This document shows, in pieces, positions 7,514-59,389 of a DNA stretch of 64,000 nt. The stretch is taken from the NCBI RefSeq assembly GCF_003568845.1, contig NZ_CP030126.1:2321001-2385000 (forward strand), read 5' to 3'. The notes below the pieces were generated by a model, which searched no databases, had not been told where the DNA came from, and saw only the letters and a list, made by a program, of their open reading frames with translations. Origin of the DNA: Indioceanicola profundi (GTDB taxonomy: Bacteria > Pseudomonadota > Alphaproteobacteria > Azospirillales > Azospirillaceae). The first letter of the stretch is position 1. The number at the start of each line of letters is the position of its first letter. Position numbers and translations under genes: made by a program.

Positions 7514-7853
7514 GGAACCCCGGAATGAAGTGAACGGAACCGGCATATCGGCAGATGCCGCTGGCAAGGGACAGTGCGCCACGGCGATGCCGGACGTAAA
7601 GACCCGGCATGCCTGCCAAGGCGGATGCCCCACCCCTCTCTTCCCCTACCCTCATAAGAGGTAGGAAGGCAAGCGTGGTGGCCTGTTCACGGTAAGGGGG
7701 CTTGCAACCGGCCCGCGGTAGGAAGGGCCGGCAGGTCCCGTAGTTCCGGGATTGAGCCCGAGCAGGTCTGCCATCCGGAAGCCTGCGGCCATGACAGGGC
7801 CGCAGGCTGGAAGCGGAAGGGCCGCGCCGGTTTTCCGGTGCGGCCCCTGTCCG
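7514..7853. other. Gap between trkH and gapR with two strong hairpins
   Basis: No gene is seen. The left part should carry the trkH promoter (reverse strand). A perfect 10-bp stem GCCTGCGGCC/GGCCGCAGGC with a 7-base loop lies at 7781-7807. A second, longer hairpin at 7819-7846 is listed separately. Confidence 0.5.
7819..7846 (-). terminator. Hairpin just after gapR, probable terminator
   Basis: A 12-bp stem with one wobble or mismatch pair and a TTTT loop (GGGCCGCGCCGG / CCGGTGCGGCCC) begins 8 bases after the gapR stop codon. There is no clean U-run, so termination is inferred from position and stem strength. Confidence 0.5.
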
Positions 7854-8117
7854 TTATTCCATGCCGAGTGCGGCCATATACAGCTCCAGCAGGGCGTCGA
7901 GCTCCTGCCGGTCGTTCTTTTCCATCTTCCGGAGGCGGATGATCTGACGCATCACCTTGGTATCGAAACCGGTGCCCTTGGCCTCGGCGAAGATGTCCTT
8001 GATGTCGTCCTGGATACCCTTCTTCTCCTCCTCCAGACGCTCGATGCGCTCAATGAAGGAGCGCAGGCGCTCGCCGGCAATGCCGCCGACATCGGCGGTC
8101 GTCGGTGCCTCGGACAT
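7854..8117 (-). CDS. gapR: GapR nucleoid-associated protein (DUF2312/UPF0335)
   Basis: This 87-residue, all-helical small basic protein matches the DUF2312 family, whose Caulobacter member GapR binds overtwisted AT-rich DNA and supports gyrase and topoisomerase IV. The conserved core runs from [20 protein letters not shown] through [20 protein letters not shown] to [15 protein letters not shown] 8117 is preceded by AGAGGAA; an upstream start would add 26 unrelated residues. It is followed at close range by a stem-loop. It sits next to DUF1244 and N-formylglutamate amidohydrolase, an arrangement I associate with this order. Confidence 0.9.
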
Positions 8118-8222
8118 TCGTATTCCTCTTTCGGATGATCCCATGCAGGCCGGGGACCATATCCAGACGCGCCGCCCCGCGCAAGCTGAGTCCAAGCCTG
8201 CGCGGGAGACAAATGCGTGCCG

Positions 8223-8522
8223 TCAGTGCGCGCCCTGGCTGGACTTGGCGAAGGCCGCCTTCTGGGCGTCCGTGGCCTCGTTCTGGTGCTTGGTCTTCCA
8301 CTCCTCGTACGGCATGCCGTAGACGATCTCGCGCGCCTCGTCGTAGCTCATCTCCAGCCCTTTCTCCTCCGCCGCGGCCCGGTACCATTTGGAAAGGCAG
8401 TTGCGGCAGAAGCCGGCCAGGTTCATCAGGTCGATGTTCTGCACATCCGACCGTTCGCGCAGATGTTGGACCAGCCGGCGGAAAGCGGCGGCCTCCAGCT
8501 CGGTGCGGGTCTTCTCGTCCAT
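8223..8522 (-). CDS. DUF1244 family protein
   Basis: This 99-residue small helical protein belongs to the DUF1244 family; no biochemical function is known to me. The conserved centre is MNLAGFCRNCLSKWYRAAAE, which contains a CxxC pair that could bind metal or form a disulfide, followed by SYDEAREIVYGMPYEEWK. ATG 8522 was chosen because the family starts at this point and the 19 upstream residues do not look coding. It lies between gapR and the amidohydrolase gene on the same strand and is probably co-transcribed with them. Confidence 0.85.
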   Translation of the reverse strand: MDEKTRTELEAAAFRRLVQHLRERSDVQNIDLMNLAGFCRNCLSKWYRAAAEEKGLEMSYDEAREIVYGMPYEEWKTKHQNEATDAQKAAFAKSSQGAH

Positions 8523-8593
8523 GTGGTCCTCCCAGGAATGACGGGCTTCAGCATATCGGCGGCCGCAGCGCGATGACAACGGGCGGCCCCCGG

Positions 8594-9424
8594 CTAATAG
8601 AGCCGCGTCTCACGCAGCTCCGGCCCCGCCAGGATGGGCTGGAACAGCCGGGCCAGTCGGCCGGCCCAGGCGGCAGCCTTCGCTTCCGTATCGATCAGGT
8701 CTTGCCGGATCTCCAGCATCACGGAGGGCAATCCGGCCGGCTCCGCATGGGTATTGATGGTGTAGCCCATAGCGCCGCGTGCGGTGTAGGGCTCATTGTC
8801 CCCGACCACCAGATCCCCCTCCGCCCTGAGCGCCGCCATCAGCGGCACGGCGATGCGCGGATCGCGGTTCCACAGAATGCCGATATGCCAGGGCCGGTCG
8901 AAACCCTCGGACAGCAGCCGTGGGGTGAAGCTGTGCACGCTGATGATGGCCGGCACCACGCCCCGCGCCCGGCATGTCGCCAGCCTCACCGCGATGCGGT
9001 CATGGTAGGGCTGGAACAGCGCCGCCAGCCGCTGCTGCCGGTCATGTTCGCTCAGGTTCGTGTTGCCGGGGATGACGGTATTATCGCTCACCGGCGGGAT
9101 CAGCGTGGGATGGTCCAGCAGGCGGTTCACATCCACGACCAGCCGGGAATAACCGGACAACACGGCTGGTGCGTCCAGCAGACGGGCCAGTTCCCGCGTC
9201 ACGTCCGCCGCCCCGATGTCCCAGCCGATGTGGCGCGCCAGCTCCGACTCGGGCAGGCCGAGATTGGCAAGGCGGCGCGGGACGCTGTTGGATGCGTGGT
9301 CGCAGACCAGCAGCGCGGGTGCGGCGCCGTCCGGATTCAGCTCCGTGACGGCGGGCGGATCGTCCGGGCCCAGCAGCGCGGGGACGGGCGGATTTTCGAC
9401 GGTTCTGTCGGGGCTGTGCGGCAT
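8594..9424 (-). CDS. N-formylglutamate amidohydrolase family protein
   Basis: The protein (276 residues) belongs to the FGase family of zinc-dependent hydrolases; HutG-type members cleave N-formyl-L-glutamate in histidine breakdown. Visible signatures are LLVCDHASNSVP near residue 39, HIGWDIGAADVTREL, LVVDVNR, ISVHSFTP and YTINTHAEPAGLPSVMLEI. No hut genes are nearby and the partner genes are gapR and DUF1244, so the physiological substrate is uncertain. It is divergent from pyk, with 250 bp between. Confidence 0.85.
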   Translation of the reverse strand: MPHSPDRTVENPPVPALLGPDDPPAVTELNPDGAAPALLVCDHASNSVPRRLANLGLPESELARHIGWDIGAADVTRELARLLDAPAVLSGYSRLVVDVNRLLDHPTLIPPVSDNTVIPGNTNLSEHDRQQRLAALFQPYHDRIAVRLATCRARGVVPAIISVHSFTPRLLSEGFDRPWHIGILWNRDPRIAVPLMAALRAEGDLVVGDNEPYTARGAMGYTINTHAEPAGLPSVMLEIRQDLIDTEAKAAAWAGRLARLFQPILAGPELRETRLY

Positions 9425-9585
9425 GAATCGGTTCTAGCGCACTCCGCCGCATCGCGGCAATCCGGCCCGCCGGATTGGCCGGCGTCAAATCCGCGCCACT
9501 CGTGTTGACCCATCCGGTTGCTTTCCCGCCCATGACCTGCATGATCGGGAGCGCTGCCGATTTGGTAACACAGCCATCATCAATT

Positions 9586-9606
9586 TCATGTAATTTCACT
9601 ACATGA
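9586..9606. promoter_or_regulatory. HexR-like palindromic operator upstream of pyk
   Basis: A perfect inverted repeat with arms TCATGTA / TACATGA and a 7-base centre lies in the divergent region between the amidohydrolase gene and pyk. Its inner 15 bases, TGTAATTTCACTACA (9589-9603), match the published gammaproteobacterial HexR consensus TGTARTWWWAYTACA at all but one position. HexR, an RpiR-family repressor, controls central carbon genes including pyruvate kinase there. Whether this organism has HexR cannot be seen here. Confidence 0.5.
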
Positions 9607-9674
9607 CGGTACCGGCCTCGGTGCCCAAGAATGGGACCGAGCCCACCCGTCCCCCAGAGGAGGATGAGTTCCAG

Positions 9675-11114
9675 ATGAAGCGCACCGCTACCGCCCTTCA
9701 CCGTGAGCGACTGACCAAGATCGTCGCCACACTGGGACCCGCCTCCAGCAATCCGGAAATGATCCGCGCCCTGTTCCAGGCCGGCGCCGACGTGTTCCGG
9801 TTGAACTTCAGCCATGGCAAACAGGAGGAGCATGCCCAGCGCCTGGAGATGATCCGGGCGGTGGAGCAGGAGATGGGCCGACCGATCTGCGTCATGGCCG
9901 ACCTGCAGGGGCCGAAGCTGCGCGTCGGCACCTTCCAGGAAGGCTCGGTCGCGCTGAAGCCCGGACAGAAGTTGCGGCTGGACCTTGATCGCACGCCAGG
10001 CGACGCCGCCCGCGTCTGCCTGCCCCATCCCGAAATCTTCGAGGCAATCGAGACCGGCACCGAACTGCTGATCGACGATGGTCGTGTGCGGCTGCGGGTC
10101 CTGTCCCATGGCGAGGGATATGCGGAAACGGAGGTCGTGGTCGGCAACAGGATTTCCGACCGCAAGGGCGTGAACGTGCCCAACGCGGTGCTGGGCATCT
10201 CCCCCCTGACCGAGAAGGACCGCAGCGACCTGAACTTCGCACTGGATATCGGGGTGGACTGGATCGCGTTGAGCTTCGTGCAGCGGCCGGAGGATGTGGC
10301 CGAGGCCAAGCGCCTGATCGCCGGCCGCGCCGCCCTGCTGTCCAAGATGGAGAAGCCGGCCGCCATCCAGCACCTGGAAGAGATCGTGGAGCTGTCGGAC
10401 GGCGTCATGGTGGCCCGCGGCGATCTGGGCGTGGAGATGCCGCCGGAGGACGTTCCCAGCATTCAGAAGCGGATCGTGCGGGAGGCGCGCATGGCGGGCA
10501 AGCCGGTGATCGTCGCCACCCAGATGCTGGAAAGCATGATCAGCGCGCCGACCCCGACCCGGGCGGAGGCATCCGACGTGGCCACCGCGGTCTATGACGG
10601 CACCGACGCCGTGATGCTGAGCGCCGAAACCGCCGCGGGCCAGTACCCTGTCGAAGCCGTCGCCATGATGGACCGTATCGCCAAGCGGGTGGAGCGGGAC
10701 CCGCTCTACAAATCCATCGTGGATGCCAGCCACCCGGACCTGGAGAGCACCACCGCCGACGCCATCACCGCGGCGGCCCGGCAGGTGGCGCAGACCATCA
10801 AGGCCGCCTGCATCGCCACATACACCACCAGCGGCTCCACCACCCTGCGCGCCGCCCGCGAGCGGCCGGACGTGCCGATCATCGGGTTGACCAGCCGGAT
10901 CGAGACGGCGCGGCGGCTCTGCATGTCCTTCGGCGTGCATGCGGTGCAGACCTCCGACATCCACAGCTTCCCCGAAATGGTGCAGAAAGCCCAGCGGCTG
11001 GCGGCCGACGACGGGCTGGCGGTTGCCGGCCAGCGCATTGTCATCACCGCCGGCGTTCCCTTCGGCACGCCGGGCAACACCAACGTGCTCCGCATCGCCT
11101 GGGTCGAGGGCTGA
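9675..11114 (+). CDS. pyk: Pyruvate kinase
   Basis: This 479-residue enzyme converts phosphoenolpyruvate and ADP to pyruvate and ATP in the last step of glycolysis/Entner-Doudoroff. Family motifs are LNFSHG near residue 37, MADLQGPKLRVG, LSKMEKPAAIQHLEEI with the catalytic Lys, MVARGDLGVEMP and MLSAETAAGQYP; a C-terminal regulatory domain follows. I use ATG 9675, preceded by AGAGGAGG about 11 bases upstream. An in-frame ATG at 9603 would lie inside the palindromic operator and add 24 low-complexity residues. The gene is divergent from the gapR block. Confidence 0.95.
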   Translation: MKRTATALHRERLTKIVATLGPASSNPEMIRALFQAGADVFRLNFSHGKQEEHAQRLEMIRAVEQEMGRPICVMADLQGPKLRVGTFQEGSVALKPGQKLRLDLDRTPGDAARVCLPHPEIFEAIETGTELLIDDGRVRLRVLSHGEGYAETEVVVGNRISDRKGVNVPNAVLGISPLTEKDRSDLNFALDIGVDWIALSFVQRPEDVAEAKRLIAGRAALLSKMEKPAAIQHLEEIVELSDGVMVARGDLGVEMPPEDVPSIQKRIVREARMAGKPVIVATQMLESMISAPTPTRAEASDVATAVYDGTDAVMLSAETAAGQYPVEAVAMMDRIAKRVERDPLYKSIVDASHPDLESTTADAITAAARQVAQTIKAACIATYTTSGSTTLRAARERPDVPIIGLTSRIETARRLCMSFGVHAVQTSDIHSFPEMVQKAQRLAADDGLAVAGQRIVITAGVPFGTPGNTNVLRIAWVEG

Positions 11115-11196
11115 ACATCGTAGGCCGGGGCGTGACAGGCGCGGCATTTGATGCTTCAAAGCGTCGACCGCCCCCGCACCCCAGTGAGCATGTCCC

Positions 11197-12231
11197 GTGG
11201 CCGAGCCGAACTTCCTTCTCCAGGACATCTGGTACTTCGCCCTGCCCGGCCAGGAGCTGAAGCCGGGAACGATGCGGGCCAAGAGCCTGCTGGACCAGCC
11301 GGTGCTTCTGGGCCGCACTGCGGCGGGCGAGGTGTTCGCGCTGCGCGACATCTGCCCGCACCGGGGCATCCCGCTCTCCTGCGGCCGCTTCGACGGGCGC
11401 GAGGTGGAGTGCCGCTATCACGGCTGGCGCTTCGACCAGGGCGGAACCTGCACCGCCATCCCATCGCTGGTGGCGGAGCAGCAGATGGATGTCTCCCGCA
11501 TCAAGGTGCGCCGCTATCCGGTGCGGGAGGTGCAGGGCAATGTCTGGATCTGGATGGGCGAGGGCGAGCCCGCGATGGAGCCGCCGCGGGTCCCGCACTT
11601 CGCCGACGGGCGGGGGGCGAACATGGTGCTGTCCATGGAGTTCCCCTGCTTCCAGGACCATGCGGTGATCGGGCTGATGGACCCGGCGCACGGCCCCTAT
11701 GTGCACAAGAGCTGGTTCTGGCGCAGCGAGCGCACCATGCACGAGAAGGCGAAGGCGTTCGGGCCAGCGCCCTTCGGCTTCGTCATGAAGCGACACCGCC
11801 CCTCCTCCAACTCCGCCGCCTATAAGATCCTGGGCGGAGCGCCGGAGACGGAGATCCGGTTCCAGCTTCCCGGCATCCGGATCGAACACATCCAGGTCGG
11901 CAGGCACCATGTCTGCAACCTCACCACCGTGACACCGCTGGGGCCGATGGCGACGGAGGTGACGAACCAGATGTACTGGACCATGGGCTGGGCCAGCGCC
12001 GCCAAGCCCCTGCTCCGCCCCTTCGCCGCCAAGTTCCTGCGCCAGGACCGGGACGTGGTGGTGATGCAGCAGCAGGGGCTGCGCCACGACCCGTCGCTGA
12101 TGCTGATCAAGGATGCCGACACCCAGGCCCGCTGGTACTACCAGCTCAAGAACGAGTGGGTCCGGGCCAGGGAGGAAGGGCGGGAGTTCCGCAATCCGGT
12201 CAAGGACGTCACGCTCCGCTGGCGGAGTTGA
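11197..12231 (+). CDS. Rieske-type aromatic-ring-hydroxylating oxygenase, alpha subunit
   Basis: The protein (344 residues, GTG start) has an N-terminal Rieske [2Fe-2S] domain with CPHRGIPLSCG and CRYHGW (about residues 55-82). The catalytic domain carries the mononuclear iron site: MDPAHGPYVH shows the D-x2-H-x4-H spacing of this class. Such oxygenases need a separate ferredoxin/reductase, and none is adjacent. Substrate cannot be read from the sequence; the SRPBCC-type catalytic domain could act on aromatics, sterols or choline-like compounds. It lies between pyk and folB, 73 bp before folB. Confidence 0.85.
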   Translation: MAEPNFLLQDIWYFALPGQELKPGTMRAKSLLDQPVLLGRTAAGEVFALRDICPHRGIPLSCGRFDGREVECRYHGWRFDQGGTCTAIPSLVAEQQMDVSRIKVRRYPVREVQGNVWIWMGEGEPAMEPPRVPHFADGRGANMVLSMEFPCFQDHAVIGLMDPAHGPYVHKSWFWRSERTMHEKAKAFGPAPFGFVMKRHRPSSNSAAYKILGGAPETEIRFQLPGIRIEHIQVGRHHVCNLTTVTPLGPMATEVTNQMYWTMGWASAAKPLLRPFAAKFLRQDRDVVVMQQQGLRHDPSLMLIKDADTQARWYYQLKNEWVRAREEGREFRNPVKDVTLRWRS

Positions 12232-49895: not shown

Positions 49896-50029
49896 CCGAG
49901 CCCACCTGCCCGGAAGATCAATAGGTGCGCTGAACAGTTGCCCGACAGGGCCGGACCTGGGATTCTGGGGCACCGGATCGGGCGGTGGAGATGCCCGGCC
50001 GCAGCGGATGCCGGAATGGGAGCGCGCCG

Positions 50030-51208
50030 ATGGATGGCGGGGTGGATGCGCTGAGCTACGAGACAGCCAAGGTCCTGGCCGTGGACCCCGACCCGTCCGT
50101 GCGCGCCGGTCTGGCCGCCCGCCCTGATACGCGGCCGGAACTGCTGTACTACATGGCCGACGACAATGACCCGTCGGTGCGGCTGGCAGTGGCCGGCAAT
50201 GCGGCGACGCCGGTGCGGGCCTCCGCCCGGCTGGCGCGCGATCCGAACGCGGATGTCCGCGCGGTGCTGGCGGCCAAGCTGGCGCGGTCCCTGCCCCATC
50301 TGACGGCGCAGGAGCATGCGGCGCTGCATGAGCTGGCGGTCAACGCGCTGACCATGCTGGCGGCGGATCAGGCGGTGCGGGTGCGGGCGGCCCTGGCCAG
50401 CGCCATCAAGGATGTGGATTGCGCCCCGCCCAAGCTGGTGGCGACCCTGGCCCGCGACGTGGCGCGGGAGGTGGCGGAGCCGGTGCTGCGCACCTGCGCC
50501 CTGCTGTCGGACGAGGACCTTCTGTCCATTATCGCCGCCCATCCCGAACCCTGGGTGCTGGAGGCCATCGCCCGCCGCCCGAATGTGAGCGCCGCAGTCG
50601 CCGACGCGGTGCGGGCGGAGCAGGAGCCGGAAGCCGGTACGGCCGTGCTCACCAGCGGTCCCGCGGCGGCGGCGCCCTGGGAAGGCGGGACGCGCGGCGC
50701 ATTGCCGCCGGAGATCACGGCCAAGCTGACCGACTTCGTCGAGGATGGCATGCGCGAAGCCCTGGCCGGCAGCGGCGCATTCGATCCGGAGACCGGGACC
50801 GAGATCGCCGATGTGGCGCGGCGGCGGCTGGATTTCGCCCGCGGCTATGGCAGCGGCGAACGGCCGGCGCCGCGCGCCGACCGGCTGTTCGCGGCGGGCG
50901 AGCTGGATGAGGAGGTGGTCTGGGATGCCATCTCCTGGGGGGATCGGGATTTCGTCCGCGCCGCCCTGGCGCTGCTGGCGAAGCTTCCGCCGGAGCTGGT
51001 GCAGCGCATCCTGGACACGCAGAGCGCCAAGGCGATCACCGCCCTGGCCTGGAGGGCAGGGCTGTCGATGCGGGGGGCGCGGCTGTTGCAGCACAAGGCG
51101 GCGGGCATCCATCCCAAGCGGCTGCTGAACGCCCGCCACGGCACCGACTACCCGCTGGGCGAGGAGGAGATGCGCTTCCAGCTCGGCCTGTTCGGGATCG
51201 AGGACTGA
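50030..51208 (+). CDS. DUF2336 family protein with HEAT-like repeats
   Basis: This 392-residue soluble protein is built of short helical repeats: YETAKVLAVDPDPSVRAGLA, ADDNDPSVRLAVAGNAATPV and ARDPNADVRAVLAAKLAR show the DPxxxVR pattern near residues 10-75. The central and C-terminal part (about 235-385) resembles DUF2336, an alphaproteobacterial family of unknown function. ATG 50030 with GGGAG seven bases upstream is preferred to GTG 49985. It is convergent with treY, six bases apart. Confidence 0.8.
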   Translation: MDGGVDALSYETAKVLAVDPDPSVRAGLAARPDTRPELLYYMADDNDPSVRLAVAGNAATPVRASARLARDPNADVRAVLAAKLARSLPHLTAQEHAALHELAVNALTMLAADQAVRVRAALASAIKDVDCAPPKLVATLARDVAREVAEPVLRTCALLSDEDLLSIIAAHPEPWVLEAIARRPNVSAAVADAVRAEQEPEAGTAVLTSGPAAAAPWEGGTRGALPPEITAKLTDFVEDGMREALAGSGAFDPETGTEIADVARRRLDFARGYGSGERPAPRADRLFAAGELDEEVVWDAISWGDRDFVRAALALLAKLPPELVQRILDTQSAKAITALAWRAGLSMRGARLLQHKAAGIHPKRLLNARHGTDYPLGEEEMRFQLGLFGIED

Positions 51209-51214
51209 CGGAGT

Positions 51215-54094
51215 TCAGCCGCAACGCAGAAGCGCCACCGGGAAACGGCGCAGCAGCTCGCCCACCGGCAGGCGGCCATCGCCATTGGGGTTCGGCACGA
51301 CATCTCCGGTCAGCAGGTTGGTGCAGTCGATGCCCGCAGGCAGCTCCGGCATGTGCAGCACCGTGTTGCCCCATGCCTCATGCGGGATCATCGGCAGGGC
51401 CGCATTCTCCATCAGCGGCGCCACCAGCCGCGGGGCGACTACCAGCGCCACCCTTCCCTCCGCCCGGCGCAGGAAGGCCACCACCCGCTCCGCCTGCGCG
51501 CCGGACGCCTCCACCGGCACATAGTCGCCATCGGCATAGAGGGCGGGATCGTCCCGGCGGTGGGCCAGGGCCGTGGCCCAGACATGCTGCTTGATCCGGC
51601 CGTCGCGCCAGTTCTCCAGCAGTGTTTCCGGCGATGACGCATCGTCCAGCGCCCGATTCAGCCGGACCCAATCCGGCGGGCGGCGATTGTCGGGATCGAC
51701 CAAGGACAGGTCCCAGAACTCCGTGCCCTGGTAGAGGTCCGGCACGCCGGGCACCGTCGCCGCCAGCAGGGTCTGGCTGAGCCCGTTGACGGCGCCCACG
51801 GGGGCGATGCGGGCGATGAAGCCGGTCAGGTCCTGCAGGAAATGCTGGCTGCGCTCCGGGTCCAGGATGCCGTGGATGAAGCGCTGCAGGGCTTCCTCGT
51901 AATCGGTATCGGGCTGCGCCCAGTTGGAGCGGAACTTGCTCTCCCGCACCGCTTTCAGCATGTAGGCCTGGAGCCGTTCCGCAAGGGCGGCGAGGCCGTC
52001 CGCATCTTGCGGCCCGAGGTCCAGCGGCCAGGCCCCCACCAGCGTCTGGTACAGCAGATACTCGTCATTGCGGCCGGGGGCGGGCCGCCGCTCCATCTCC
52101 CGCTTCTTCAGCCGGTTCAGCCGCGCCCATTTGCGCACATGCCGGTGCCATTCGTCCGGCAGCTCGGACAGCATGTCGATCCGCACGCGGGTATCGGCCC
52201 CGCGCTTGTGGTCGTGGGTGGCGAGGGTGACGAGCTGGTGGGGCCAGCGCCGCCGGCGCTCCTGGTTGGCGTGGTGGAAGGCGGCGACGGTGGTGCCGAA
52301 CCGGTCCGGATCGCCCCCGACCTCGTTCAGGGAGACGAGACGGACAAAGCGGTAGAACAGCGTGTCCTCCACCGACTTCGCCATGACGGGGCCGGTGAAC
52401 TGCTGGAACTTCATGGCGATGCGGTGGACATCCGCCGCCTTGTACCCGGCCCGCCTCTCCTGCGCCAGGCCGGCGGTCAGGGCGTCGCGCAGGAAGTCGT
52501 AGACGGTGAGGTCGGTCGCCGCCTCCGCCGATTTGCGCGCCCGGCTGACGGCCCAGTCGATGTAGCGCCGGTCCTCCTCCCCCGCTTGGTCCGGGGTGAT
52601 GTAGGTGCGGTAGACCGGGAAATGGGCCACGATGTCGGCCAGCGCCCGGCGGATACCGGTGAGCGTGTGGTCGCGGGTGTCCCAGCTCTGCTGCGCCAGC
52701 CGGTGGAGCTGCCCCGCCAGCACGTTCAGCTCCGCTGACAGGTTGCGGGAGACGATCAGCCGCTTGGCCGCGACCAGCATCTCCTCGTAATTCGCCTCCC
52801 GCTCCAGGAACTGCTCATAGATGTGGGTCAGATCCTCCTGGGAGGAGGTATCGACGAACAGCCCGTTGACCAGCACCATGAACTCGTAGCCGGTGGTGCC
52901 GGCTACGGGCCAGTCCTCCCGCAGATGTTCGTGCCGGGCCAGGATCTTCTCCACCACCACATAGAGCGGTTCGCCCAGCGCCGGGGCGCCGGGGGCCTGC
53001 GGCAGCGCGCCCGGCCGGTCGGTCAGGTAGGCGGCGCGGTTCTGGAGCTGCTCGCAATAGGCCTTGGGATCGAACAGCCCGTCGATATGGTCGATCCGCA
53101 CCCCCTGGAGCTTGCCCTCGCCGATCAGGCGGAAGACGAGCTGGTGCGCCAGCTCGAACAGCTCCGGCCGCTCGATCCGCAGGCCGGCCAGCTCGTTGAC
53201 GTCGAAGAACCGGCGGTAGTTTATCTCGTCCGCCGCCACCCGCCAGAAGGCCACGCGGTAGGCCTGCCGCTCCAGCAGCTCATGCAGCTCGCGGAAGCTT
53301 TTCGGCTGGCCGGGCACGCCGCTCAAGCGGTCGCAGACATGGTCGATGCAGCGCGCGGCGGCCGGCGCTTCCTCGCACAGCCGGGCGAGGCGGGCCTTCA
53401 GCTCATCGGCCTGCCGGCGGACCAGCGACTGCTTCTGGATGGAGCGGGAGGTGGAAGAAAGGGCGGAGAAGCCGTTGGCCAGCTCGCCCAGCGCCTCCTT
53501 GGCGGCCGCATCCTCCACCCGCTCCCACGCCTGGCGGAGCAGGCGGGGATAGTCGCGCACGGCGACGGGACACCTGTTCTCCCAGTACCAGACGCTGAAC
53601 ACCCCGCCATCGAGCTTGAGCTTCAGCTCCCCCCGCTCCAGCACGGCTCCGTACTGGTCGCCCAGGATGGGCAGCAGCAGCCGCCCGCCGGACTGCCAGT
53701 CGATGTCGAAGAAGGGGGCGTAGGGGCTGGCCTCCCCCCATTCCAGCACATCCAGCCACCACGGATTGTCGGACCCGCCCACCCCCATGTGGTTGGGCAC
53801 GAAATCCAGGATCAGCCCCATGCCATGGGCGTGCAGGGCGGCGACCATGGCGTCGAACGCGGCCTCGTCCCCGATCTCCTCGTTCAGCCTTGCATGGTCG
53901 ATGATGTCGTAGCCGTGGGCGGAGCCGGCGCGCGCCTTCAGGAAGGGCGAGGCGTAGAGATGGCTGACGCCCAGCCGGGCGAGATAGGGCGCCAGCTCCG
54001 CCGCCTGCGCGAAGCCCAGGTCCTTGGAGAATTGCAGCCGCGCCGTGGCACGCGGAACGGCGGGAATAGGCGGGGTCGGCTGGTCGGCGGCCAT
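51215..54094 (-). CDS. treY: Malto-oligosyltrehalose synthase
   Basis: This 959-residue GH13 enzyme converts the reducing-end glucose of maltodextrins to an alpha-1,1 (trehalosyl) linkage. GH13 motifs are [24 protein letters not shown] with the nucleophile Asp, [11 protein letters not shown] with the acid/base Glu, and [13 protein letters not shown]. The N-terminus ([20 protein letters not shown]) and length match TreY. I use ATG 54094; an earlier ATG (54154) would start next to a REP. It is the last gene of the glgX-treZ-treY group. Confidence 0.95.
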
Positions 54095-54166
54095 GGGCTC
54101 TTTCGTCGTTGCTTCGGTTCGCGCAAGGGCTGGACGGGGTGGGTTGGAGAGCATGCCAGCGGTGCA

Positions 54167-54216
54167 GCGTCGGACCTCGCCGACGCTCGATCCGACCTAC
54201 GGCAGCCGATCCGACC
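54167..54216. repeat. REP-like hairpin in the treZ-treY gap
   Basis: GCGTCGGACCTCGCCGACGC followed by TCGATCCGACCTACGG (54167-54202) is the same GTAGGTCGGA-type foot and stem in reverse orientation, with a second partial unit ATCCGACCTGCGG. It lies within the operon, between treZ and treY. Its stem differs from the main copies (CGGA instead of CGCA), so it may be a second subfamily. Confidence 0.6.
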
Positions 54217-54222
54217 TGCGGC

Positions 54223-56109
54223 TCACCCCGCCTCGGGCGCGGTCAGGAACCAGGCGGCGGACCAGGGGGGCATGCGGCCCTGGTCCAGCAGGTCTTCCAG
54301 CCCCTCCTCCGTCTCGAACAGCAGGTCGCCGCCGGGATGCTCGAATCCGTCACGCTCCTCCTCGCCCAGATTTGCGGCGACGGAGAGGATGGCGCCGTCC
54401 GCCAGCTCCCAGGCCACCGTGATGGCGCGGCCGTTCCAGCAGCGTCCTTCCGCCCGGGCGGACATGCCGGCCAGCCGGGGCACGATGGCGTTCTGGCGGA
54501 GCTTCAGCAGCACGCCGTAATGGGCCAGCCAGTCCTCATGCTCCTCCCAGGCCAGCGCCTCCCAGTCCAGCTTGCTGGCGATGAAGGTCTGCTCGGCATT
54601 GGGATCGGGGATGCGGGCCAGGATTTCGGGGGCGGAGAATTCCGGGAAGCTTCCGAACTCCCGCAGCCGCCCCTCGCGGACGGAGTCGGCCAGCCCGCCG
54701 TGGAACTCGCAGAAGAAATGGAAGGGCGTCTTCGCCCCCCACTCCTCCCCCATCCACAGCATGGGGATCTGGGGGCTGAGCAGGTGGAGGCTGGACATGG
54801 CCCGCAGGGCCCGCGGCTCCACCAGCATGGACAGCCGCTCCCCCAAAGCACGGTTGCCGACCTGATCGTGGTTCTGGAGGAAGCTTACGAAGGCGGTGGG
54901 CGGCAACTCCCCGCTCGGCTCCCCGCGGTTCTTGCCGCCGCGGTGGGCGGAGGGTTCGCCCTGGTAGATGAAGCCCTCCGTCAGGGCGCGGACCAGCATC
55001 TCGCCGGGCGCGTCGGGATAGTCCTTGTAATAGCCGCCGCTCTCGCCGGTCAGCAGCACATGGCAGACATGGTGGAAGTCGTCGTTCCACTGGGCCGTGT
55101 AGGTTTTGGGGCTGCCATCCTTGCGGCGCTTCAGGTGGCGGGCCTCGTTGGAGTCGTTCTCCAGCACCAGATGGATGTGCCGGTCCGGCAAGCGCTCCCG
55201 CACGGTCTTGCCCAGCTCGGTCAGCAGGTCGGTGCCGCTGCTGTCCACGATGGCGTTGACGGCATCCAGCCGCAGCCCGTCGAACCGGAACTCCTCCAGC
55301 CAGTAGAGCGCGTTGTGGATCATGAAGTCGCGGACGGGACGCGCATGCTTGCCATCGTAATTGATGGCCGCCCCCCAGGGGGTGTGATGCCGGTCCGTGA
55401 AGAAGGGCTTGGCGTAGGCGTGCAGGTAGTTCCCGTCCGGCCCGAAATGGTTGTAGACCACGTCCAGGAAGGCCTGCATGCCGCAGGCATGGATGGCGTC
55501 CACCAGCTGCTTCAGCTCGTCCGGCGTGCCGTAGGAGCTGTCCGGCGCATAGAACAGCACCCCGTCATAGCCCCAGCCCCGCCGGCCGGGGAAATCGGCC
55601 AGCGGCATCAGCTCCACCGCGGTGACGCCCAGGCTGGCCAGATGCTCCAGCTTGTCGATGGCGGCGAGATAGGTGCCCTGGGGCGTGAAGGCGCCGACAT
55701 GCAGCTCATAGAGCACCGTCTGCTCCCACGGGCGGCCCCGGAAGCCGGGCTCCTCCCACCGGTAGGCGGCGGGGTCGATGACGGTGGAGGGACCGTGCGC
55801 GTCATGGGCCTGATAGCGGGAGGCCGGATCGGGCACCAGCATCCCGTTGGGAAGCGCATAGCGGTACTGGCTGCCGGCTTTGGCCTGATCGGTGGTCAGG
55901 CTGAACCAGCCATCCCCTTCCGCCTTCATGGGCAGCCGCCGCTCCCCGCTGCCGGTCGCCAGCGCCAGCTCGACGCTGTCAACCGACGGCGCCCACAGGC
56001 GGAAGCGGACCCGGCCGTCGGGCTGGATCTGGGCGCCGAAGGGCATGGAATGGGCGACGCGGTCCGGCGTGTCCGGGGCGGCATCGGCTTCGCGGGCGGA
56101 CACGGTCAT
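54223..56109 (-). CDS. treZ: Malto-oligosyltrehalose trehalohydrolase
   Basis: This 628-residue GH13 enzyme releases trehalose from the TreY product. An N-terminal beta domain (VRFRLWAPSVDSVELAL) is followed by the barrel with FLDVVYNHFGPDGN, FDGLRLDAVNAI (nucleophile Asp), LVLENDSNEAR (acid/base Glu) and FLQNHDQVGN. PWGAAINYDG is characteristic of TreZ. It lies 75 bp downstream of the response regulator gene. Confidence 0.95.
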   Translation of the reverse strand: MTVSAREADAAPDTPDRVAHSMPFGAQIQPDGRVRFRLWAPSVDSVELALATGSGERRLPMKAEGDGWFSLTTDQAKAGSQYRYALPNGMLVPDPASRYQAHDAHGPSTVIDPAAYRWEEPGFRGRPWEQTVLYELHVGAFTPQGTYLAAIDKLEHLASLGVTAVELMPLADFPGRRGWGYDGVLFYAPDSSYGTPDELKQLVDAIHACGMQAFLDVVYNHFGPDGNYLHAYAKPFFTDRHHTPWGAAINYDGKHARPVRDFMIHNALYWLEEFRFDGLRLDAVNAIVDSSGTDLLTELGKTVRERLPDRHIHLVLENDSNEARHLKRRKDGSPKTYTAQWNDDFHHVCHVLLTGESGGYYKDYPDAPGEMLVRALTEGFIYQGEPSAHRGGKNRGEPSGELPPTAFVSFLQNHDQVGNRALGERLSMLVEPRALRAMSSLHLLSPQIPMLWMGEEWGAKTPFHFFCEFHGGLADSVREGRLREFGSFPEFSAPEILARIPDPNAEQTFIASKLDWEALAWEEHEDWLAHYGVLLKLRQNAIVPRLAGMSARAEGRCWNGRAITVAWELADGAILSVAANLGEEERDGFEHPGGDLLFETEEGLEDLLDQGRMPPWSAAWFLTAPEAG

Positions 56110-56184
56110 GGGATGGCACCTTCCTCACATTCGGTCGGCAGGGTCATCGGCCGTGGCGTTTCCGTCCGCCGTCCGGAAGAGCGG

Positions 56185-57222
56185 TCAACCCTCACGCGGA
56201 GGCGGTTCCTCCTGCTCGTCCATGATGGGGCCCGCCGGATCGGCCCCGGTAGGTTGGGAGGCCTGCGCCTTGGCCTGGACCATCTCTGCAAGCCGGTTGC
56301 GGTACGAATTAACAGCAGCCATCACCTCTTGTTCCAGCACGGACTGGTCGCCACGCTGGGCGGTCAGGGCGGCAAGGCCGAGGGCGGCGCGCTTCAGGGT
56401 CAGCGGGTCCGCGATGGAATGCTGGGTGTCCTGCCGGAAGGTCTCCACCGCGTTGACCAGAACCCGGGCGAAGAGATCGGCCTTCATCCGCATCTCCCCC
56501 ATGGGCAGGCGGCGCATCAGATCCTCCACCACCGGCATGATGCGCAGCGCATGGTCCACCGCCATCCGCTCCGGCGGCTCCGACATCAGGCCCGGCAGGG
56601 CGAACAGGGTCAGGAAGGCGGTCTGGAAGCCGTGCCGCACGACCTTCTGATGGTTGACGGCATGCATCGCCGCGCCGATCTGCTCACCGATCGCGCCGCG
56701 ATCCAGCTGGCCCAGCGCCTTGAGGCGGAGCGTGTCCGGCACCTCCACCAGCGGGATCTGCTGTCCCTCGCGCGGGGAGCGGCGGCGGTCAGGGCCGATA
56801 TAGTCGCTGGTGACGACGAAGGGCCGGCGATGCTCCACCAGCTTGGCGACGCGGTCCTGAACCTGCTTCGCGGAAAAGGGCTTCAGGATGATGTCGTCCG
56901 CGCCCGAGGCGGTGAAGCGGAACATGAACTGGGACGTCGCCTGCCATGTCGTGGCCACCACCGTGGCGAAGGGGTTGGCGATGTTCATGGCGTGGCGGAA
57001 CTGCTGGACGAAGCGGAACCCCTCCCCCTCCGGCGGGTCGCCATCCACGATGATCAGGTCCGGCGTGCTGCTGGCAAAGGCTGCCATGGCCGCCGCGACG
57101 TCCGGGAACTCCTGCACCTTCTCCATTCCCATGCGGGTCAGGATGCTGCGCAGCAAGCGGCGCATGTTGGATTCCCGGTCGATCAGGAAGACCTGGACCT
57201 GACGGAGATCGTATTCAGCCAT
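56185..57222 (-). CDS. Response regulator receiver protein inside the trehalose operon
   Basis: This 345-residue protein has an N-terminal receiver domain (about 1-125): FLIDRESNMRRLLRSIL, phospho-acceptor Asp in LIIVDGDPPEG, Thr in VVATTW and Lys in DIILKPFSAKQV. The usual acidic pair of the pocket is Asp-Arg here. After the receiver comes DYIGPDRRR, a motif I have seen in other alphaproteobacterial regulators, then an all-helical region to 345 with no recognisable DNA-binding or enzymatic domain. It overlaps the glgX end by eight bases and precedes treZ, so it is co-expressed with trehalose enzymes. No kinase gene is near. Confidence 0.85.
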   Translation of the reverse strand: MAEYDLRQVQVFLIDRESNMRRLLRSILTRMGMEKVQEFPDVAAAMAAFASSTPDLIIVDGDPPEGEGFRFVQQFRHAMNIANPFATVVATTWQATSQFMFRFTASGADDIILKPFSAKQVQDRVAKLVEHRRPFVVTSDYIGPDRRRSPREGQQIPLVEVPDTLRLKALGQLDRGAIGEQIGAAMHAVNHQKVVRHGFQTAFLTLFALPGLMSEPPERMAVDHALRIMPVVEDLMRRLPMGEMRMKADLFARVLVNAVETFRQDTQHSIADPLTLKRAALGLAALTAQRGDQSVLEQEVMAAVNSYRNRLAEMVQAKAQASQPTGADPAGPIMDEQEEPPPREG

Positions 57223-59389
57223 CCGCATCCCCGGGGCCGGAGGCCGGTTCCGGGGCGGTCAGCTCGAACAGCAGGGTGGTGCGTCCGGCGATTTCCACCG
57301 GTTGGCCGGCCGGCTCCGTCCGGTCGCCGGGCGATCCTGTGGCGTGGCCGGTGTCCAGCAGGCAGCGCCAGCCCTGGCCCTCCTCCCATCGCGGCAGGAT
57401 AAAGGGTACGGGCGCGTGATGGGCGTTCAGCACCAGCATCAATACGCCATCGGCGGCAGGCCCGCCATCGGGCCGCAGATGCGTCCCGGCCCGACCGTTC
57501 AGCAGCAGGCCCAGGCAGCGGGCATGGGTGTTGCGCCACTGCTCCGGCGTCTTCTCCGTGCCTTCCGGCGTGATCCAGGTGATGTCCTTTACGCCGTCGC
57601 CCGAATGCTCCCGCCCGTGCAGGAAGCGCTGCCGGCGCAGCACCGGGTGCCTGCGGCGCAGGTCGGTCAGGCGCCGGACGAAGGCGGTCATGTCCTTGGC
57701 GCCATCGACATCCGCCGTCCAGTCGAACCAGCTCGTCTCATTGTCCTGGCAATAGGCGTTGTTATTGCCGCCTTGGGTGCGCAGCAGCTCATCCCCGCCC
57801 AGCAGCATGGGCGTGCCCTGGGACAGCAGCAGGGTGGCCAGCATGTTGCGCGACTGGCGCCGGCGCAGCGCCCGGATGGCCGGATCGCCGGTCGGCCCCT
57901 CCACCCCGTAATTGGCGCTGTAATTGGCGTCGTGCCCGTCGCGGTTCCCCTCCCGGTTCGCCTCATTGTGCTTCTGGGTGTAAGACACCGTGTCGGCCAG
58001 GGTGAAGCCGTCATGGCTGGTGACGAAGTTGATGCTGGACCAGGGCTTGCGCTTGGCATGCTCGAACAGGTCGGCGGAGCCGGTGAGCCGGGCCGCCAGC
58101 TCGGGCAGCATCCCCTCATCCCCGCGCCAGTAGCGGCGGGTGGTGTCGCGGTAGCGGTCGTTCCATTCCGCCCAGCCCGGCGGGAACTGGCCGACGCGGT
58201 AGCCGCCGGGGCCGACATCCCACGGTTCCGCGATCAGCTTGACCCGCGACAGCACCGGGTCCTGCCTCACCGCATCCAGGAAGCCGGAGCCGGGGTCGTA
58301 GCCATGCGGCTCCCGCGCCAGGGTGGTGGCGAGATCGAAGCGGAACCCGTCCACATGCATCTCGGTGACCCAGTAGCGCAGGCTGTCCATCACCATCTGC
58401 AGCACCCGCGGATGCGCGATGTTCAGCGTGTTGCCGGTGCCGGTATGGTCCAGATAGTAGCGCTTGTCGTGCGGGTTCAGGATGTAATAGCTGGCATTGT
58501 CGATGCCGCGGAAGGACAGGGTGGGGCCGAGATGGTTGCCCTCCCCGGTGTGGTTGTAGACGACATCCAGCAGCACCTCGATCCCGGCATCGTGCAGCCG
58601 GGCCACCATGGTCTTGAACTCGCGCGTCGAGGTGCCGGACATATAGAGGTGGTGCGGCGCGAAGAAGCCCACCGTGGCATAGCCCCAGTAATTGTGCAGG
58701 GACTTCTCCACCAGATGCCGCTCATCGGCGAAGGTCTGGACCGGCAGCAGTTCCACCGCCGTGACGCCCAGCGCCTTCAGGTGATCAATAACCGGCTGGC
58801 TGGCCATGCCGGCGAAGCTGCCGCGCAGGGCCGGCGGCACCTCCGGATGCTTCAGCGTCATGCCGCGCACATGGGTCTCGTAGATCACCGTGTCGGCCCA
58901 GGGCACGTTCGGCGCACGCTCCACGCCCCAGGTGAAGGCCGGGTCGATCACCCGGCATTTCGGCATGCCGCGGGCATTGTCGCGCCGGTCGAAGGACAGG
59001 TCCTCGCGGCTGGAGCCGAGGCGGTAGGCGAAATGCGCGTCCGACCAGCGGATCGGCCCCACCAGTGACTTGGCATAGGGGTCCAGCAGCAGCTTGTGCG
59101 GATTGAAGCGGTGGCCGCGGGCGGGATCGTAGGGGCCGTGGACGCGGTAGCCGTAGAGCAGCCCCGGCCGCGCCTCCGGCAGGTAGGCGTGCCAGACCTC
59201 GTCCGTGCAGTCCGGCAGGGTGACGCGGTCGATCTCCCGCATCCCCGTTTCATCGAACAGGCAAAGCTCCACCCGCTCGGCATGGGCGGAGAACAGGGCA
59301 AAATTCACCCCGGACCCGTCCCAGGTGGCGCCGAGGGGATAGGGACGTCCCGGCCAGACGGTGGTGCGCGCAGCTCCGGTGGTTCGCAT
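57215..59389 (-). CDS. glgX: Glycogen debranching enzyme GlgX (TreX-type)
   Basis: This 724-residue GH13 isoamylase-type debrancher removes alpha-1,6 branches from glycogen and supplies linear maltodextrin. It has the N-terminal domain (YPLGATWDGSGVNFALFSAH), catalytic motifs LLDVVYNHTGEGN, VDGFRFDLATTL, LIAEPWDVGPGGY and FVTSHDGFTL, and GTPMLLGGDELLRTQGGNNN. Length is typical. It is the first gene of glgX-RR-treZ-treY, so glycogen or maltodextrin is the likely source of trehalose here. Confidence 0.95.
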   Translation of the reverse strand: MRTTGAARTTVWPGRPYPLGATWDGSGVNFALFSAHAERVELCLFDETGMREIDRVTLPDCTDEVWHAYLPEARPGLLYGYRVHGPYDPARGHRFNPHKLLLDPYAKSLVGPIRWSDAHFAYRLGSSREDLSFDRRDNARGMPKCRVIDPAFTWGVERAPNVPWADTVIYETHVRGMTLKHPEVPPALRGSFAGMASQPVIDHLKALGVTAVELLPVQTFADERHLVEKSLHNYWGYATVGFFAPHHLYMSGTSTREFKTMVARLHDAGIEVLLDVVYNHTGEGNHLGPTLSFRGIDNASYYILNPHDKRYYLDHTGTGNTLNIAHPRVLQMVMDSLRYWVTEMHVDGFRFDLATTLAREPHGYDPGSGFLDAVRQDPVLSRVKLIAEPWDVGPGGYRVGQFPPGWAEWNDRYRDTTRRYWRGDEGMLPELAARLTGSADLFEHAKRKPWSSINFVTSHDGFTLADTVSYTQKHNEANREGNRDGHDANYSANYGVEGPTGDPAIRALRRRQSRNMLATLLLSQGTPMLLGGDELLRTQGGNNNAYCQDNETSWFDWTADVDGAKDMTAFVRRLTDLRRRHPVLRRQRFLHGREHSGDGVKDITWITPEGTEKTPEQWRNTHARCLGLLLNGRAGTHLRPDGGPAADGVLMLVLNAHHAPVPFILPRWEEGQGWRCLLDTGHATGSPGDRTEPAGQPVEIAGRTTLLFELTAPEPASGPGDADG

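Follow-up and report, generated by a model that had tools for sequence, protein, structure and literature searches.

A receiver-protein gene among glycogen and trehalose genes

What does a gene for a lone receiver-domain protein do between a gene for glycogen debranching and two genes for trehalose synthesis? The question arises in a 64,000-nucleotide stretch of the Indioceanicola profundi genome (the window), where a sequence-only reading had proposed that this protein, here called the regulator, senses a phosphosignal and acts by contact on the trehalose enzymes or on a stress-response partner. The answer that we prefer, at a probability of about 0.43, is that the regulator would be a phosphorylation-independent pseudo-response regulator, an adaptor or allosteric subunit that works through contact with another protein. 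The partner would be the machinery for alpha-glucan debranching and, in the first place, GlgX.

The four genes concerned do stand in line on the minus strand, as had been read: glgX, for the glycogen debranching enzyme (57215..59389; TIGR02100, 1072.8 bits against a cut-off of 640.9); the regulator gene (56185..57228, for 347 amino acids, or 345 when counted from 57222; PF00072, 8.9e-16); treZ, for malto-oligosyltrehalose trehalohydrolase (54223..56109; TIGR02402, 706.7 bits against 538.8); and treY, for malto-oligosyltrehalose synthase (51215..54154; TIGR02401, 999 bits against 498.65). GlgX, TreZ and TreY each pass the NCBIfam equivalog cut-off. Gaps of 75 nucleotides separate the regulator from treZ and 68 nucleotides treZ from treY; strand and spacing make it plausible that the four genes form one transcription unit. 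In the order of transcription they are preceded by two genes for EamA transporters, and since these lie on the same strand just upstream of glgX, the unit may be longer. Consensus scans returned one promoter-like site against 0.9 expected from shuffled sequence and three terminator-like sites against 3.1 expected, and Rfam gave no window match at gathering thresholds.

The overlap of eight bases reported earlier between the 3' end of glgX and the start of the regulator (57215..57222, minus strand) is correct if the regulator starts at its second ATG (57222); from the first ATG (57228) the overlap is 14 bases instead. Because 7 of the 45 named relatives in which glgX is adjacent show a spacing of -8 too, we favor the start at 57222, and all residue numbers below are counted from it unless stated otherwise. 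In the window, the overlap would couple translation of glgX and the regulator and so set the ratio of the two proteins. The two genes are ∼70 to 180 nucleotides apart in most named Azospirillum loci, and such tight coupling is therefore not general.

The regulator is nearly universal in the Azospirillaceae and usually adjoins glgX

A 32-row profile of the regulator family matched 81 of the 82 Azospirillaceae genomes (E ≤ 1e-40). The sole genome without a match was G029, and G004 holds divergent copies only. GlgX was found in 80 of the 82 at the limit used, with misses in G103 and G008; the former is explained by a fragment at a contig end, which leaves G008. TreZ and TreY were found in 58 and 56 of the 82 (E ≤ 1e-100). 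The class, sampled evenly, yielded a match in 52 of 385 genomes (E ≤ 1e-35), five of the 52 being from Azospirillaceae. The plasmid collection has the regulator on five Azospirillum records, of which two bear the annotation 'response regulator'. Some distant relatives carry tandem or near-tandem copies of the family (L133, L154, G139:C21, G275:C69 and G444:C4).

Which genes accompany the regulator? The immediate upstream neighbor, on the same strand, is glgX in 64 of the 81 genomes, and in three more (G014, G085 and G103) the contig ends inside a glgX that adjoins the regulator, for a total of 67. In another five (G005, G010, G015, G020 and G024) glgX is not adjacent and malQ lies directly downstream, so an alpha-glucan gene adjoins the regulator in 72 of the 81. 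The regulator of G015, a draft genome (L070, 7898-8837), is split over two reading frames, by a frameshift or an assembly error. A finer view came from 80 named loci, 58 of close and 22 of distant relatives. Among the 58, glgX is adjacent in 45, and within eight genes on the same strand malQ occurs in 38, glgB in 25, treS in 21, and treZ or treY in 7; any of treZ, treY and treS occurs in 28. The usual neighbor is glgX, followed by malQ or treZ. The fullest order, glgX-regulator-treZ-malQ-treY, was seen in G009, G014 and G003; in the window no malQ stands between treZ and treY.

These counts bear on the idea that the regulator is specific to trehalose. A survey of tre operons had been suggested as its check, and the regulator turned out to lie mostly outside them: treZ is directly downstream in 11 of the 81 genomes, and 13 have treZ or treY no more than 6 kb away. 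As a general case, a trehalose-specific regulator is rejected by these figures and by the presence of the family in 81 of 82 genomes versus 58 for treZ and 56 for treY. The earlier proposal of protein contact with the trehalose enzymes survives in part: contact is still the likeliest mode of action and the alpha-glucan link is conserved, and the trehalose-specific role gives way to glgX as the usual neighbor.

Could the adjacency of glgX and the regulator be accidental? Gene order was compared over 14 representative loci from 12 genera (genus g13 three times, the window excluded), which were picked by the regulator, so that pairs containing it are favored; among their 123 distinct adjacent pairs, glgX-regulator was the most conserved, in 9 of the 14. 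Next came regulator-treZ (6 of 14) and EamA-glgX (5 of 14), and 109 of the 123 pairs occurred in one locus only. Within loci picked in this way, a conserved glgX-regulator pair speaks against both chance and simple inertia. We reject a chance neighbor, since the pair recurs across many genomes and is conserved where its flanks differ, again in regulator-picked loci.

Loci where the regulator stands without glgX

The serious alternative, which has a good chance of being right while staying short of even odds, is that the regulator belongs to a core family with a job of its own, for example as an adaptor in stress or cell-state signaling, and is merely coexpressed with the glycogen and trehalose genes. 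Adjacency would then reflect an ancestral operon and common timing and not physical partnership. We rate this explanation as high as we do because the regulator gene outlives its neighbors. Nine of the 81 genomes have no alpha-glucan gene that we found beside the family member: seven Nitrospirillum (genus g2), G008 and G004. In Nitrospirillum the regulator follows deoA. The simplest reading of this order is a deletion that removed glgX, since deoA is upstream in the window too, with panD, the two EamA genes and glgX between it and the regulator. The Nitrospirillum regulator is not a gene in decay after loss of glgX: its frames are open, and it is under purifying selection, with pairwise dN/dS of 0.08 to 0.42 in six genomes (Nei-Gojobori counts, own script). 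In G008, a draft genome that is 97% complete, we did not find GlgX, GlgB, TreZ or TreY at the limits used; the regulator is kept there with a ferritin-type gene directly after it, one of a cluster found with the locus in many Azospirillum.

Distant relatives also speak for a separate job. The 22 named distant loci (391 kb) contained no GlgX, TreZ, TreY, MalQ, GlgB or TreS by tblastn (E ≤ 1e-5), and some of their family members stand beside signaling genes. The member in L157 is next to an Hpt protein (8866-9648), and the one in L137 lies between a receiver-PAS-GGDEF-EAL protein (7849-9903) and a STAS protein (11103-11408); these neighbors hint at roles in other signaling networks.

Against a separate job, the glgX-regulator pair stays together while its flanks vary between lineages, and the five genomes with malQ downstream keep an alpha-glucan neighbor although glgX is not adjacent. 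All seven Nitrospirillum genomes still encode a lower-scoring GlgX at another place, both of those tested for it (G019 and G023) encode GlgB, and G004 has GlgX and GlgB; TreZ and TreY were not found in the seven Nitrospirillum genomes (E ≤ 1e-100). On a tree of the 32 profile rows the linked and unlinked states need two changes, which, with the root at the midpoint, would suit a linked ancestor and two losses.

The receiver domain is a pseudo-receiver

We then asked whether the regulator could sense a phosphosignal. Pfam recognizes the receiver domain PF00072 alone (E ≤ 0.01), at residues 13-127 of the 347-residue form, which agrees with the earlier statement that the protein has no known output domain. 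An AlphaFold2 model of the whole regulator, built with 32 orthologs, had a pLDDT of 90.6, and its receiver-fold domain (residues 10-131; 56830..57195, minus strand) aligned with CheY (3rvm) by VIA-align over 126 residues (Z 16.6, rmsd 1.8). The active-site positions were mapped by an alignment to CheY and are consistent with the strands of the model. They were followed in 66 close orthologs, defined as sequences scoring >400 bits against the 32-row profile, and in 54 distant members that score lower, 120 in total.

The Asp-Arg pocket noticed earlier is present. The first metal-binding residue of the window regulator is D15, and the place of the second acid (CheY D13) is taken by R16 (codon 57175..57177, minus strand), so the two-acid metal site of a canonical response regulator is incomplete. 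No close ortholog has an acid there: all 66 carry Ser, Pro, Thr, Arg, Ala, Lys, His or Asn. Of the 54 distant members, 53 have lost the acid and one has it. The residue after the conserved Thr/Ser (T+1) is Trp in 59 of the 66 and otherwise Phe or Tyr, and the residue three before the conserved Lys (K-3) is never aromatic, each of the 66 having Leu, Ile, Met or Val. None of the 120 family members has the full catalytic set. Pseudo-receivers, according to a 2025 review, are ∼80% non-acidic at the second acid, have fewer small T+1 residues and show weaker Y-T coupling (PMC12632262); the regulator deviates at the second acid, the small T+1 and the aromatic K-3 as that text describes. With PF00072 recognized and the catalytic set incomplete, the receiver of the regulator is, by its sequence, a pseudo-receiver. 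The Asp-Arg pocket argues against phosphosensing, as one of the changes typical of such domains, and the regulator is probably not a phosphosensor. The sensing of a phosphosignal in the earlier proposal is thus unsupported, further phospho-switch residues having been lost as well.

It is nevertheless conceivable, and to us quite improbable, that a kinase phosphorylates D60 in a working switch that tolerates the Asp-Arg pocket. The window regulator does retain the phospho-acceptor Asp (D60), the Thr/Ser (T92) and the Lys (K114), and these are well kept: of the 66 close orthologs, 63 have the Asp, 60 have Thr or Ser at the T92 position and all have the Lys. Opposed to this are the second metal position, where even Arg, Lys and Pro occur, the bulky T+1 and nonaromatic K-3 residues, the Glu or Ser that replaces D60 in three orthologs, and the immediate neighborhood in the window, which includes no kinase gene. 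CheY with Lys at the second-acid position is active without phosphorylation.

How might a receiver that is probably not phosphorylated meet a partner? The residues shared by at least 80% of the 120 members include N83-P84-F85 before beta-4, P95 after beta-4, R76 at the end of alpha-3, and G107 and D109 before beta-5, as well as G143-P144-D145-R146-R147 of the linker. N83-F85 and P95 border the alpha3-beta4-alpha4 edge. The pseudo-receiver of FrzS binds SgmX through this edge, as the review has it (PMC12632262), and by analogy the edge may be a candidate docking face in the regulator.

A conserved linker leads to a C-terminal helical bundle

Behind the receiver lies a linker, FVVTSDYIGPDRRRSPR (residues 135-151; 56770..56820, minus strand), which contains GPDRR. 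In the 120 family members G143, P144 and R146 are invariant, D145 is found in 117 and R147 in 119. As a motif spread through the window genome GPDRR was rejected: there were five DNA matches, one of them the regulator gene, versus two for a reversed-pattern control. The linker is followed by a C-terminal helical bundle in the AlphaFold2 structure (residues 164-322; 56257..56733, minus strand), which was also predicted separately (residues 150-328, 87 sequences) with a pLDDT of 94.9. The separate bundle had no Foldseek match in the PDB at E ≤ 0.001, which does not make it a new fold. Its best VIA-align partner was a designed helical protein (Z 11.8, rmsd 2.7, 105 residues aligned), and since this Z falls in the range for common helical arrangements, the closest structures amount to assorted helical bundles.

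A profile search of PDB sequences with the bundle returned weak matches, mostly to helical proteins (best E 0.0099), Pfam found nothing better than E 0.068 on the bundle of the window regulator, and the Pfam Hpt family matched the C-terminal part weakly in 1 of 87 members (E 0.016). Among the 25 of 54 NCBIfam matches listed for the regulator, all end by residue 141 and all are below cut-offs. That the regulator might bind nucleic acid and control its operon through the basic, highly conserved GPDRR linker and the bundle is most improbable, given that the closest structures are those just named and that neither Pfam nor the listed NCBIfam matches include a DNA-binding family or output domain (OmpR, NarL or NtrC type) for the window regulator.

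A proposed phosphorylation-independent partner of the debranching machinery

Taken with the probable want of a usable phosphosite, the lack of a recognized output domain means that the regulator most likely binds another protein, and GlgX or the alpha-glucan set is the partner that gene order suggests. We therefore return to the pseudo-response regulator introduced at the outset. A receiver fold with a disabled metal and phosphate site, joined by the GPDRR linker to the helical bundle, would act by protein contact as an adaptor or allosteric subunit. Its first partner would be GlgX, whose malto-oligosaccharides would feed MalQ and TreZ/TreY, and glycogen and trehalose flux might be affected in turn. 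A sharper version, which we hold only tentatively and consider rather unlikely as it stands, makes the regulator a dedicated phosphorylation-independent subunit of glycogen debranching, made together with GlgX, that docks through the alpha3-beta4-alpha4 edge or the bundle and gates the passage from glycogen to malto-oligosaccharides for trehalose or energy. If the subunit version is true, a metabolic enzyme would be the direct target of a pseudo-receiver. Most of the family shares the gene order, which singles out an enzyme as candidate partner and so offers a testable case for pseudo-receiver action; the mechanisms that activate or inactivate bacterial pseudo-receivers 'remain a mystery' according to the 2025 review (PMC12632262). 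The regulator would also give the Azospirillum group, whose members include plant-associated and cyst-forming bacteria, one more control on glycogen and trehalose metabolism.

How does the regulator compare with known systems? The pseudo-receivers FrzS, BldM and WhiI, as treated in PMC12632262, likewise match PF00072 and have an incomplete catalytic set; the regulator differs from them in the helical bundle after its GPDRR linker and in its linkage to the gene of a metabolic enzyme. Aspartate-less receivers (ALR; PMC4395418) share the receiver fold and an incomplete active site, and the window regulator is set apart from them by its phospho-acceptor D60. Control of glycogen breakdown at the level of the enzyme, as proposed here, has two precedents: HPr binds and regulates Escherichia coli glycogen phosphorylase (PMC11046441), and GlgX of Streptomyces venezuelae is stimulated by c-di-GMP (PMC10519070). 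These support enzyme-level regulation by a protein and regulation of GlgX itself, although the first effector is a phosphocarrier and the second a small molecule, and neither has the receiver fold of the regulator. Trehalose clusters of treY and treZ, with glgX in some, encode the same enzymes as the window; the window differs in having a receiver-protein gene inside, and in most family genomes the regulator occurs with glgX and without treZ or treY.

Pfam and NCBIfam hold no name of its own for the regulator family. Among the matches listed in our literature search (response regulators, trehalose and glycogen genes, Azospirillum, pseudo-receivers), whose scope left out most subscription papers, we found no published description of it. 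What is new is a pseudo-response-regulator family whose output part is helical and whose link to glycogen debranching is conserved; the kind, pseudo-receivers, is known. A survey of Azospirillum two-component systems counts stand-alone receivers (PMC4618731), and its main text is without the words 'glycogen' and 'trehalose'; the main texts of PMC4340629 and PMC6159551 are without 'glycogen', 'trehalose' and 'glg'. A flocculation proteome of Azospirillum brasilense (PMC4264754), where 'glycogen' and 'trehalose' are likewise absent from the main text, lists in a table a 'protein of unknown function; putative response regulator domain', which may or may not belong to the regulator family.

Two further observations concern the surroundings of the locus. 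A gene on the plus strand (49985-51208), convergent to treY, encodes a DUF2336 protein (PF10098, 2.2e-27) that has a subthreshold NCBIfam match to SpbR (109 bits against a cut-off of 400). A second cluster of glgX, treZ and treY lies on another contig of the same genome (G000:C2:905817-916393), and its TreZ open frame, of 1911 residues, suggests a fusion, as in many relatives.
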